Shown piece after piece: positions 3,818 to 39,713 of a DNA stretch of 45,879 nt. Below the pieces are notes generated by a model, which saw nothing but the letters and a program-made list of their open reading frames with translations, made no database searches and was not told the DNA's origin. The stretch's first letter is position 1. The number at the start of each line of letters is the position of its first letter. The stretch spans positions 1 to 45,879 of the IMG/VR virus record IMGVR_UViG_3300025120_000112, one strand, 5' to 3'. The translations under genes were made by a program, and so were the position numbers. Source of the stretch: a virus.

Positions 3818-4726
3818 ATGGCAATGAATAGAGCGAGTTTTGCAAAAACTCTAGAGCCGGGTCTGAACACTCTCTTTGGACTTGAGTACGACAGCTATCC
3901 CGCTGAATACGAGGCCGTCTTTGAATCGAATAGCTCTCAAAAGGCTTACGAGGAAGACGTACTTTTGAGTGGATTTGGACAAGCGCCAACAAAAACTGAA
4001 GGTGGAGCCGTCTCTTATGACAGTGCAAGCCAACAGTGGACTGCGCGTTACCAGCACGAAACCATCGCCTTGGCGTTCTCAATCACTGAGGAAGCTGAAG
4101 AAGATGGTCAGTATGGTTCGCTGGCTTCGCGCTACACAAAGGCGCTGGCACGTTCAATGGCATCGACCAAAGAGATCAAGGCCGCTAACGTCTTGAATAA
4201 CGCTCAAGCCGCTGGATTTACTGGTGGTGACGGTCAAACCATGTTGAGTGCATCGCACCCAACACAGAACGGCAACCAGTCCAACGTGCTTGCCACGGCG
4301 GCTGATCTGTCCGAAACATCTCTTGAGTCGATCCTGATTAACATCAGCGACATGAAAGATGATCGTGGCCTTCGCATTGCGGCACAAGGTATGCAATTGG
4401 TTATTCCAACTGCTTATCAGTTCACCGCAGAGCGTCTGCTGGAATCAGCATTGCGGCCAAGCACTGCCGATAACGACATCAACGCGATTAAGGCTGGTGG
4501 TTATCTGCCACGGGGCTATCACATCATGCGCCGTCTGACCGATCCAGATGCGTTCTTTATTACCACTGACGTTCCAGATGGTCTGAAGCACTTCACCCGT
4601 TCAGCAATGAAAAAGGGTATGGAAGGCGACTTTGAGACTGGCAACGTGCGGTATAAAGTTCGTGAGCGTTACAGCTTCGGTTTTACCGACTGGCGCGGCA
4701 TCTTCGGAACCGAAGGCGCAGCATAA
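3818..4726 (+). CDS. Major capsid protein (HK97 fold, Mu gpT-like)
   Basis: 302 residues. The layout resembles Mu gpT-type major head subunits: N-terminal arm, QQWTARYQHETIALAFSITEEAEEDG strand-helix region (about 70-95), a long helix with ALARSMASTKEIKAANVLNNA (about 106-126), an H-P containing loop, an A-domain with VIPTAYQFTAERLL (about 190-203), and a C-terminal strand YKVRERYSFGFTDWRGIFG. AGGAGG lies nine bases before this ATG; an ATG at 3811 is out of frame and aborts. No cleavage domain is obvious. A strong terminator follows, as expected for the most expressed late gene. Confidence 0.85.
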   Translation: MAMNRASFAKTLEPGLNTLFGLEYDSYPAEYEAVFESNSSQKAYEEDVLLSGFGQAPTKTEGGAVSYDSASQQWTARYQHETIALAFSITEEAEEDGQYGSLASRYTKALARSMASTKEIKAANVLNNAQAAGFTGGDGQTMLSASHPTQNGNQSNVLATAADLSETSLESILINISDMKDDRGLRIAAQGMQLVIPTAYQFTAERLLESALRPSTADNDINAIKAGGYLPRGYHIMRRLTDPDAFFITTDVPDGLKHFTRSAMKKGMEGDFETGNVRYKVRERYSFGFTDWRGIFGTEGAA

Positions 4727-4762
4727 ACAACCCACTCTCCTCTTCCTTGTTGGGTCAAACTG

Positions 4763-4789
4763 GGGCGGTCTTCGGATCGCCCTTTTTTT
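4763..4789 (+). terminator. Rho-independent terminator after capsid gene
   Basis: An 8-bp stem, GGGCGGTC with GATCGCCC (one G-U pair), closed by a TTCG tetraloop and followed by seven T. It ends the capsid operon. A near-copy stands at 5905. Confidence 0.9.
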
Positions 4790-4826
4790 ATTTTAAATAA
4801 AAATGCATTTTATTTGTATCTGCCTA

Positions 4827-4854
4827 TTGTATTCTTGACTGTATCCCTTATATC
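4827..4854 (+). promoter_or_regulatory. Candidate promoter for the 4.9-5.9 kb genes
   Basis: TTGTAT (4827-4832), 16-bp spacer, TATATC (4849-4854), just after the capsid terminator. It shares TTGTATTC and CTTATAT, at equal spacing, with the leftward promoter at 25.4 kb. GTATC repeats occur in and before it. Confidence 0.5.
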
Positions 4855-4884
4855 AATCATAAGCGAAACAGAGGAGAGACAAAA

Positions 4885-5877: not shown

Positions 5878-5880
5878 CAC

Positions 5881-5934
5881 TAACGCCGTTAGCGTTACAA
5901 AAAAGGGCGGTCTTCGGATCGCTCTTTCTTTTTG
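5881..5934 (+). terminator. Terminator after the small-gene cluster
   Basis: First a TAACGC/GCGTTA hairpin (5881-5897), then an 8-bp stem GGGCGGTC with GATCGCTC (5905-5924, two G-U pairs) with a TTCG loop and a T-rich tail. The second stem is a near-copy of the capsid terminator. Confidence 0.85.
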
Positions 5935-6011
5935 TTCAGACCTGTTGTATTGTGCCGACATCCCTGACAGCCGCACAATGTGGCTGACACTTGCCACGAC
6001 AGGAGATCATC

Positions 6012-6494
6012 ATGGCTAATACAACATTCACAGGCCCAGTACGGTCTGAAAATGGCTTTCAAGACATTACGAAAAATACAACAACAGGCGCTGTCACAAG
6101 CACAATGACGCTTCAAACATATGAAGCAACCATAACTGTTGCAAATGGCGCAACCACAGGCAAAGAAGCGGCCATTGGTATCCCAGTGAACTTTATTCCT
6201 ATGGGCGTAACCATTGCAGTAACCACTGCGGCTGCAAATGCAGTTAATCTTCAAGACATTGGTACTGACACTGATACAGATGGTTATGTAGACGGCATTA
6301 GTGTTGCAGTTAACAGCGTAGGATTTAAAGGCTTCTTTGGATGCAACGGTGTGTTGGGCATGTCAGGCTTTACGACAGGCGCAAGTGGCCTTGTAGGTGA
6401 TGAAGTTGAACTTGTTGTGTCAGGTGATCCCGGTGGTGATACAGTAATTGTTCTAAAATTCTTTGGAATATCTAGCTCTTCGGATGCATCTTAA
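6012..6494 (+). CDS. Virion structural protein, beta-rich
   Basis: 160 residues starting MANTTFTGPVRSENGFQ, a start I associate with decoration or virion proteins of marine podoviruses. Thr, Gly and Val rich, no charge clusters, last residues a Ser tail. AGGAG lies six bases before the chosen ATG; an upstream in-frame ATG at 5991 has no such site. Role on the virion surface is inferred. Confidence 0.65.
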   Translation: MANTTFTGPVRSENGFQDITKNTTTGAVTSTMTLQTYEATITVANGATTGKEAAIGIPVNFIPMGVTIAVTTAAANAVNLQDIGTDTDTDGYVDGISVAVNSVGFKGFFGCNGVLGMSGFTTGASGLVGDEVELVVSGDPGGDTVIVLKFFGISSSSDAS

Positions 6495-24553: not shown

Positions 24554-24631
24554 TTTTTGATCTCCTGATTTTTGAATTTTTGATCTTACCTAATACATAT
24601 AGTGATACCCCAAGATATATCAAGGGGTATC
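24551..24631 (-). promoter_or_regulatory. Leftward promoter A with palindromic operator
   Basis: Reading leftward: TTGATA (24618-24623), 16-bp spacer, TATATG (24596-24601). A palindrome GATACCCC...GGGGTATC (24604-24631) covers the -35 and spacer. The leader down to the start codon (24551-24601) is almost identical to the one at 25356-25404. Confidence 0.6.
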
Positions 24632-24644
24632 TTTAAATAATTTA

Positions 24645-25358: not shown

Positions 25359-25438
25359 TTTTTGTCTCCTGATTTTTAATTTTTGATCTTACCTAATACA
25401 TATAAGAAATATATCTGGGAATACAATACCCCCAGATA
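25356..25438 (-). promoter_or_regulatory. Leftward promoter B with operator-like repeat
   Basis: Reading leftward: TTGTAT (25421-25426), 16-bp spacer, TATATG (25399-25404). Inverted repeat TATCTGGG...CCCAGATA (25412-25438) overlaps it. Leader 25356-25404 is a near-duplicate of the one for promoter A. Confidence 0.6.
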
Positions 25439-25454
25439 CATTTAATTAATATTT

Positions 25455-37913: not shown

Positions 37914-38116
37914 CCAGAAAGGCAATTAAACGAGAGCAGTTTAAAGTCGATCACCTGACTTTTGAACTGACCGACACGACCTACGCAGTAATCGCTGGAG
38001 AGGCCGTACACGCAAAGGATCGACGCCCACTATTCACGGGCGTCATCACCAAAGGAACCGCAACAGAGCTACGCAGACTGGCTCACCACTTCGATGAAAG
38101 GGAGGATAAATTATGA
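37910..38116 (+). CDS. Small protein with TTG start
   Basis: 68 residues, basic start, beta-rich middle (FELTDTTYAVIAGEAVH). No ATG exists in frame; the TTG overlaps the previous stop (TTGA) after GAGGG. No family recognised. Confidence 0.5.
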   Translation: MTRKAIKREQFKVDHLTFELTDTTYAVIAGEAVHAKDRRPLFTGVITKGTATELRRLAHHFDEREDKL

Positions 38117-38589
38117 TCGATTACGATAAAATAAACTTAAATGAATACGCTCTTAAACTAAGGCGCGATGGAAAAACATTTAAGCAAATAGGCGATGAGT
38201 TTGGCGTAAGCAGAGAACGAGCAAGGCAGAGGGTCGCGTGGGGAAGCAGGCATGAAAAAAAACTAGAGCGGCATGAAGCTGCCACAACAATGGGTGATCT
38301 GTTTATGTCAGAACGAGCAAGGAACACAATAAAAAATCTTTCGGTTATTGATATGACCTTCGATGAGTTCTTGGATAATGTCAGCTATAAGAAAATGATG
38401 CATACACCTAATCTTGGGGAGGTTACCGCCAAAGAAATAATAAATACGCTTAAAGAAAAAAACGTCTCAGAAGAAAAATTAAAAGCGTGGCTCAGTGTCA
38501 AAATAAAAAAACCAAAAAAAAAAGACGTGACGCAGGCATACCAAAAGGCCCAGAAGAAAAATATGACACATGCCAAAAGTACGTCATAG
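38113..38589 (+). CDS. Sigma-region-4/alpha-CTD-like transcription factor
   Basis: 158 residues. Residues 12-42 (ALKLRRDGKTFKQIGDEFG, SRERARQRVAW) match the sigma-70 region 4 helix-turn-helix. Residues 67-115 resemble the RNA polymerase alpha C-terminal domain, with MTFDEFLDNVSYKKMMH and the TPNLG turn (98-102) followed by TAKEIINTL. The tail is Lys-rich. Such a fusion would act on host RNA polymerase at phage promoters. A run of ten A near the 3' end may shift the ribosome into the next frame. Confidence 0.75.
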   Translation: MIDYDKINLNEYALKLRRDGKTFKQIGDEFGVSRERARQRVAWGSRHEKKLERHEAATTMGDLFMSERARNTIKNLSVIDMTFDEFLDNVSYKKMMHTPNLGEVTAKEIINTLKEKNVSEEKLKAWLSVKIKKPKKKDVTQAYQKAQKKNMTHAKSTS

Positions 38590-38687: not shown

Positions 38688-38969
38688 ATGATCGTTAAAT
38701 CTTGGCAATTCAGAGGCTACGAGTGGAGCCAAGACATGCCAGAATGGCTAAAGCCAGAATGCTCCAAACGTGCGGGAAGCCCACACCTGTGGATACACAC
38801 GCAGGCAGGAGAAGAAGCAGCAGCGTCAGGGCAATACATCGCCATCAATCTGAGAGGCCACGTCAGCATACACAACACAAAGCCAGACGGATGGGTGAAA
38901 GAAATTATCGCAGGCGTTGCCTTCGCAATCATTGTCGCAATTGTCGCCATCGCAATGCTCTCCCTTTAA
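38688..38969 (+). CDS. Small membrane protein, unknown
   Basis: 93 residues; GGAGG precedes the ATG. A soluble N-terminal part with Trp (VKSWQFRGYEWSQDMPEWLK) and one C-terminal membrane helix (about 72-93). Could be an inner-membrane modifier of host metabolism or superinfection. Confidence 0.6.
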   Translation: MIVKSWQFRGYEWSQDMPEWLKPECSKRAGSPHLWIHTQAGEEAAASGQYIAINLRGHVSIHNTKPDGWVKEIIAGVAFAIIVAIVAIAMLSL

Positions 38970-39004
38970 TCAATGGCAATTAATGGGAGTTGACACAAAT
39001 GTTT

Positions 39005-39036
39005 TTGATTGACCCAGAATCAATGCATGATAAAAC
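39005..39036 (+). promoter_or_regulatory. Promoter with inverted-repeat operator
   Basis: TTGACC (39009-39014), 16-bp spacer ending in an extended TGA, and TAAAAC (39031-39036). TTGATT...AATCAA (39005-39023) is a perfect inverted repeat over the -35. Confidence 0.55.
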
Positions 39037-39042
39037 AAACGG

Positions 39043-39168
39043 GAAATCGAGGATGGTCTCCTTGAAGTCGGTTAGATTGAGGCTCAAAGCAATGATAGTT
39101 GTGGAGAGTAAATATAGCTTGTCGTAGTGATAGCTGCGGCAGGCTTTTTTTATCACAAGAACGACAGC
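39043..39168 (+). ncRNA. Candidate short RNA or attenuated leader
   Basis: Runs from the expected start of the promoter at 39031 to a terminator pair. No open frame with a ribosome site is seen. Short pairings (TCTCC at 39057 with GGAGA at 39103; ATTG...CAAT) suggest folding. It may be a small RNA or the leader that controls terminase expression. Confidence 0.45.
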
Positions 39169-39178
39169 CCTTTTTTTT
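39117..39178 (+). terminator. Two alternative terminator hairpins
   Basis: Stem 1: an 11-bp pair of 39117-39127 with 39134-39144 (three G-U) and seven T. Stem 2 uses the same left arm (39117-39132) with 39151-39168, then eight T (39171-39178). They cannot form together. Two U-tracts, one left arm. Confidence 0.7.
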
Positions 39179-39221
39179 AATTTAATTTTGCATTATATGA
39201 AAATTAAAGGAGGGCCGCATC

Positions 39222-39713
39222 ATGGCGAAAAAAACAACCAAGAAAAAACCAGTCGGTAGGCCAAAGTTCAAAATCACAGAAGAGGTGCTGCAACAGACGC
39301 AAAGCCTTATGGCAAAGGGACTGACAAAAGAACAGTGCGCTGGAATGCTAGGCATTTCAGTCTCCACTTTCATGCTTCATCAGGCAGAAAATTCGGAATT
39401 TTCGGACGCTATAAAAAGGGGCGAGGCAATGGGGATCGACGCCGTGACCAACGCTCTCTTTGAAAATGCTACCGTCGAGCGTGACAACACAGCCATCATA
39501 TTCTATCTAAAAAATCGTGCAGGCTGGAAAGATGTCAAAGACATGAACGTGAAAGACGAAAAAATAATTACGCTAGACCTTACAAGGATCGGGATCAATG
39601 AACTCAGCGCACTTGAAGCAGCTTTTGAGCAGCCTCACATTGGAGCAAGTCCGAGCCGAAAAGTACCGACGATCATTGAGGGAGTTTACGAGAGCCGCAT
39701 GGCCGACGATTGA
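39222..39713 (+). CDS. Terminase small subunit
   Basis: 163 residues. Lys-rich start, HTH-like part with KGLTKEQCAGMLGISVSTFMLHQ (about 33-55), then helices with NTAIIFYLKNRAGWKDVKDM (about 86-105), a common small-terminase pattern. It recognises DNA for packaging. Its last 116 bases overlap the large subunit gene in another frame. AGGAGG precedes the ATG. Confidence 0.8.
   Translation: MAKKTTKKKPVGRPKFKITEEVLQQTQSLMAKGLTKEQCAGMLGISVSTFMLHQAENSEFSDAIKRGEAMGIDAVTNALFENATVERDNTAIIFYLKNRAGWKDVKDMNVKDEKIITLDLTRIGINELSALEAAFEQPHIGASPSRKVPTIIEGVYESRMADD

Follow-up and report, generated by a model that had tools for sequence, protein, structure and literature searches.

The gap ahead of the terminase small subunit gene (terS) in the window, by which we mean the whole 45,879-nucleotide stretch of viral DNA analysed here (IMG/VR record IMGVR_UViG_3300025120_000112), is on balance best read, though with considerable reserve, as holding an exchangeable phage small-RNA cassette whose terminator would double as an insulator of the packaging operon. 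A promoter-like block would drive a short structured RNA of ~110 nt, made up of a 5' stem-loop with a GGUC loop (SL1), a variable middle stem-loop (SL2) and a terminator hairpin; both the activity of the promoter and the existence of the RNA are things that we infer. The RNA would end at an intrinsic terminator, which also fills the place of the terminator that nearly all relatives have where the replication-side genes give way to the packaging operon, and which is expected to insulate that operon from upstream transcription. The RNA would most likely be trans-acting, with a host or phage RNA or else a protein as its target and perhaps its exposed GGUC loop as the point of contact, while the packaging genes would probably be transcribed from a separate conserved region (39159-39215).

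Comparison of relatives establishes, at the level of sequence, a cassette that comes and goes as a unit, its division into two classes, the conservation of the terminator and paired changes in SL1, and it thereby backs the small-RNA reading that the preliminary description of this DNA had offered as one option. The phage is of the marine Roseobacter type, with a member of the Rhodobacteraceae as its likely host.

Table 1. Features in and around the gap upstream of terS (window coordinates).
Feature	Position	Strand	Observation
Gene for a 93-aa protein, upstream side of the gap	38688-38969		same direction as terS
Hairpin CUCCC.UUAAU...AUUAA.GGGAG at the 3' end of the 93-aa gene	38957..38988	+	folds in 6/6 variants, with or without cassette
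Inverted repeat TTGATT-N7-AATCAA / ATTGA-N7-TCAAT over the -35, candidate operator	39005..39024	no strand	exact in the window
Promoter-like TTGACC -35, 16 bp, extended TGA-TAAAAC -10	39009..39036	+	common to classes A and B
Predicted small RNA, class A body, ~105-110 nt	39043..39151	+	fold z = -4.5; 2 variable sites/115
SL1, 5' stem-loop, 7 bp, loop UGGUC	39047..39065	+	7/7 pairs kept, class A vs B
SL2, middle stem-loop, variable	39082..39109	+	class B: other hairpin or none
Intrinsic terminator, rightward, 13 bp, loop GAUA, T7	39116..39151	+	
Proposed second terminator, right arm and T8	39151..39178	+	opens block conserved with or without cassette
terS leader, GAACGACARCCCTTTTTTTTAATTTAATTTTGYATTATATG.. 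SD	39159..39215	+	0-6 differences/58 bases across relatives
Terminase small subunit gene (terS)	39222..39713	+	PHROG 309, E 1e-26

Distribution of the cassette among relatives

Relatives were gathered via terS (60 loci), the upstream 93-aa gene (49 loci), the promoter block and the downstream block (36 contigs). Among the contigs that share the downstream block, 25 of the 36 have only a plain terminator in the gap, for example AAGCCCCGCTTCGGCGGGGTTTTTTT, which is followed directly by the TATCACAAGAACGACARCCCTTTTTTTTAATTTAATTTTG block, matching the window apart from small variations in TATCAC. The other 11 carry the cassette, eight in the form found in the window (class A) and three in a second form (class B); together with the window and L073, a phage contig within a Rhodobacteraceae MAG whose cassette is interrupted by a run of N, they make up the thirteen cassette sequences considered here. 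Two isolates, Roseobacter phages CRP-901 and CRP-902, likewise show nothing but the plain terminator. Cassette and plain terminator occupy one position between near-identical flanks, and the promoter-like block occurs in classes A and B and in none of the plain-terminator relatives. By this comparison, promoter-like block, structured RNA and terminator are shown to be present or absent as a unit. As regards L073 itself, the interruption (4219-4530) comprises ~300 N, and perhaps marks a point at which the assembly broke because cassette types were mixed within one population.

A strict hairpin-plus-T test detects a terminator ahead of terS in 33 of the 37 distinct relatives, compared with 14 hits at 300 random positions in the window; in three of the four relatives that fail it, a terminator can be seen by eye, its T run preceded by an A or its loop long. 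Since the terminator is there in nearly all relatives and the cassette in some, the rightward terminator is the constant feature of the gap, and the cassette the variable one. Sister lineages (L019, L042, L129 and L131) have a conserved inserted loop, roughly CGGYYAGGTTTCGCACTGCAACRG, within the terS terminator hairpin, and several of them have an extra hairpin with a CCTGT loop ahead of it.

Promoter-like block and predicted RNA

The promoter-like sequence described beforehand was found as claimed, with TTGACC at 39009-39014, a spacer of 16 bases and TG(A)TAAAAC, in which TAAAAC occupies 39031-39036. With both strands scored, a simple consensus-plus-TG score places this site among the top three of the window. 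Its -10 is weak, however, and a stricter promoter scan omits the site because TAAAAC lacks the near-invariant final T. Transcription is predicted to start near 39043. The perfect operator that had been placed over the -35 stands in part: the palindrome TTGATT-N7-AATCAA is exact in the window (39005-39023), as is the overlapping ATTGA-N7-TCAAT (39008-39024), but in L016 and L071 the outer bases of the repeat have changed and only the inner arms are kept, so that conservation of an operator cannot be separated here from that of the promoter.

Classes A and B are near-identical from GTTGACACAAATG to TAAAACAAA and diverge beyond. Class A members differ at 2 of the 115 positions of the RNA body, and both changes fit the predicted fold including SL2: G to A at 39089 turns a G-U pair into an A-U pair, and 39095 is a loop position. 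Between the window and L066 the adjacent gene has 10 differences in 279 positions, four of them at its 40 four-fold sites, and fewer changes per site are seen in the class A body than at those four-fold sites (1/115 vs 4/40, Fisher p = 0.016). The terS proteins encoded next to class A cassettes are 51 to 83% identical to that of the window, while the RNA is almost unchanged, although recent spread could also explain this near-identity. Class B comprises three length variants with differing middle hairpins and terminators; the terminator sequences differ, and all of them fold.

SL1 is found in both classes at an equal distance from the promoter, as a 7-bp stem closed by an NGGUC loop in which GGUC is invariant. 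All seven pairs hold in all four of the sequences compared between classes A and B, three of them having changed on both sides, and the covariation score, which amounts to one deep comparison between two classes, was matched by 8 of 500 shuffles. These paired changes give modest but real support to a transcribed RNA beginning near 39043. The predicted RNA as a whole folds better than its shuffles (z -4.5), and does so with z of about -4 in five of five variants tested; with the terminator removed the value is -1.75, which is just mildly better than chance. Conserved RNA structure, such as is looked for in a phage sRNA, was therefore found in the form of the three double changes of SL1 and a fold z near -4.

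Terminator, terS leader and alternative explanations

The preliminary description had proposed, as a possibility, two mutually exclusive terminators, sharing a left arm, before the packaging genes. The first has the three G-U pairs and seven T ascribed to it, but its limits had been drawn short: the stem joins 39116-39128 to 39133-39145 and has 13 rather than 11 bp (-20.1 kcal/mol), with the T7 run at 39145-39151. Since the opposite strand folds to just -5.4 kcal/mol, this hairpin reads rightward as RNA, as had been proposed. The second pairing, of the left arm (39117-39132) with a right arm given earlier as 39151-39168 and then eight T, is possible on paper (GTGATA with TATCAC, GTCGT with ACGAC and GCT with AGC, reaching 39169), but when forced it yields only -15.3 kcal/mol, ~5 kcal/mol worse than the first hairpin, and the ensemble probabilities are ~1 for the first hairpin and ~1e-5 for the second stem. 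Among 30,574 18-mers sampled from the phage, 175 (0.6%) pair equally well with the second right arm, a complementarity that is uncommon for one chosen site and not compelling across a body of ~110 nt.

That the left arm picks one of two terminators, and thereby gates terminase, is an explanation to which we give almost no credence. The complementarity is real, and the 18-mer count puts it above average for the right arm. However, when relatives were compared for joint conservation of both arms, the right arm (TATCAC..GAACGACA) proved to be kept in 25 contigs that have neither cassette nor left arm, with GAACGACARCCCT8 retained. Class B differs on the left side, where it has no comparable arm, and its terminators do not pair with the right arm in like manner. 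The first hairpin, already the better fold, would also have finished forming by the time that polymerase reaches the right arm, and both of the alternative folds end transcription, which leaves no on/off choice to be made. It would be unsafe to call a terminator loop in this gap an attenuator before comparing relatives. A leader peptide is scarcely more credible. A frame of 42 codons, encoding MFLIDPESMHDKTNGKSRMVSLKSVRLRLKAMIVVESKYSLS, is open from the ATG at 38999 to a TAG at 39127, which falls in the left arm of the terminator, and it has GGGAG ~10 bases upstream. Yet every codon difference among near-identical copies alters the residue (TTG>TCA, CCA>ACA, GCA>ACA, ATA>CTA), the frame in class B is only 16 codons long, and GGGAG, the sole SD-like sequence, sits in the 3' arm of the conserved hairpin that closes the 93-aa gene, where it is also found when no such frame follows.

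Two further readings are, in our judgement, both unlikely and to a similar degree. The cassette might have no active promoter and simply extend the mRNA of the upstream operon as a structured tail, from which a 3'-UTR-derived small RNA is perhaps processed; the upstream genes are co-directional, the 93-aa gene ends in a conserved hairpin, and the weakness of the -10 hexamer would fit. What tells against such a tail is that the best-conserved stretch between classes A and B is the 40-odd bases around the -35 and -10, while the transcribed part differs, as a promoter would predict. Alternatively, transcription from the promoter might stop at the terminator, yielding a short RNA, up to the point at which a phage factor permits read-through into the packaging genes. 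In phage λ, the pR' promoter lies just before the late genes. The pR'-tR' layout of that phage (PMC6266700) is matched here in its order of promoter, short RNA, terminator and late genes on one strand, and a protein with a sigma region 4 and a part like the alpha-CTD is encoded just upstream (38113-38586). However, most relatives lack the promoter yet have the terminator, so their late expression needs another route. The sigma-like gene is missing from the cassette carriers L066, L057 and L072, no Q-like family was found among the ten proteins checked, and a separate conserved terS leader is present.

This terS leader occurs once in the window and, among relatives, both with and without the cassette. 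From its conservation it is a candidate late promoter or packaging site, and the region 39159-39215 is probably the real promoter region of the packaging operon. It contains an AT-rich -10-like ATTATATG and no clear -35, so that an activator may be needed. A candidate is the 158-aa protein encoded at 38113-38586 on the + strand, a possible phage transcription regulator that combines a sigma-70 region 4 helix-turn-helix (Pfam, above cutoff) with a part resembling the RNA polymerase alpha-CTD (just below cutoff); its distribution is patchy in relatives. Taken as a repeated late box, the terS-proximal motif GAACGACARCCC has no full-motif copy elsewhere, and its loose matches outnumber those in shuffles but scatter over both strands. 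The leader sequence GAACGACARCCCTTTTTTTTAATTTAATTTTGYATTATATG itself is almost invariant, while the adjacent terS protein drops to 51-56% identity.

Comparison with known RNAs and possible functions

The sequence family of the cassette RNA appears to be undescribed, and to be found just in this phage group. Rfam at gathering and relaxed thresholds left the gap empty apart from chance eukaryotic matches, with nothing over the gathering cutoff at 38900-39300, and blastn against phages and plasmids returned weak AT-rich chance matches only. A covariance model of promoter plus SL1, run on 72 sources and 199 Rhodobacteraceae-family genomes, recovered known members only; a DNA search of 298 Rhodobacteraceae-family genomes gave the MAG phage contig and a 21-base match, due to chance, within a coding gene; and a relaxed promoter pattern added no cassette members from IMG/VR. 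Searches of the literature for a small RNA ahead of terminase genes returned no match.

The nearest counterpart in layout is the λ 6S RNA (pR' to tR'), likewise a short RNA from a promoter just ahead of the late genes that ends at an intrinsic terminator, and listed as an Hfq-dependent phage sRNA whose function is unexplored (PMC12197685). It differs from the cassette RNA in that no Q/qut system was recognised here, the cassette is absent in most relatives and Rfam finds no sequence similarity. As for the action in trans proposed for the cassette RNA, λ PreS and VP882 VpdS (PMC12197685) are phage sRNAs that act in this way on host or phage RNAs, whereas the likely host here belongs to the Rhodobacteraceae and is not a gamma-proteobacterium. 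The plain rho-independent terminators of CRP-901, CRP-902 and the IMG/VR relatives share the position, direction and insulating role of the cassette's own terminator, but come with neither promoter-like block nor RNA body. When the start regions of the phage were taken as targets of the RNA, none did better than shuffled bodies, the best value being reached by 17 of 60 shuffles.

More speculatively, and we would hold this as a possibility rather than an expectation, the cassette may belong to a new, fast-diversifying, phage-only RNA family, in which a constant promoter and GGUC-bearing 5' stem are combined with interchangeable middle hairpins and terminators, exchanged in and out at the terminator site before terS by members of one marine phage group, and possibly evolving as a regulator of the Rhodobacteraceae host or as counter-defence. 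To our knowledge, few RNA genes have been described from abundant marine phages outside the cyanophages. The occurrence of matching neighbourhoods in which the cassette is present, absent or replaced amounts to a ready natural experiment, for which the cassette-free isolates CRP-901 and CRP-902 offer a related background.

Elsewhere in the window, a strong Rfam match to the Mu-gpT-DE RNA (RF03012, 72 bits against a gathering cutoff of 49) lies at 5962-6014 on the + strand, directly after the GGGCGGTCTTCGGATCGCTC terminator. It is a phage RNA family found in the same genome as the cassette, but differs from it in place and sequence; the related phage CRP-902 has an annotated Mu-like gpT major head protein. 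The early-region gaps at 24554-24644 and 25359-25454 have TTTGATCTTACCTAATACATATA and TCTCCTGATTTTT blocks in common, probably an early leftward promoter and SD in two copies. In the late region, the terminators at 4727-4884 and 5878-5990, both on the + strand, share an GGGCGGTCTTCGGATCG hairpin, and with these two internal terminators the late region seems to be split into separately transcribed blocks.
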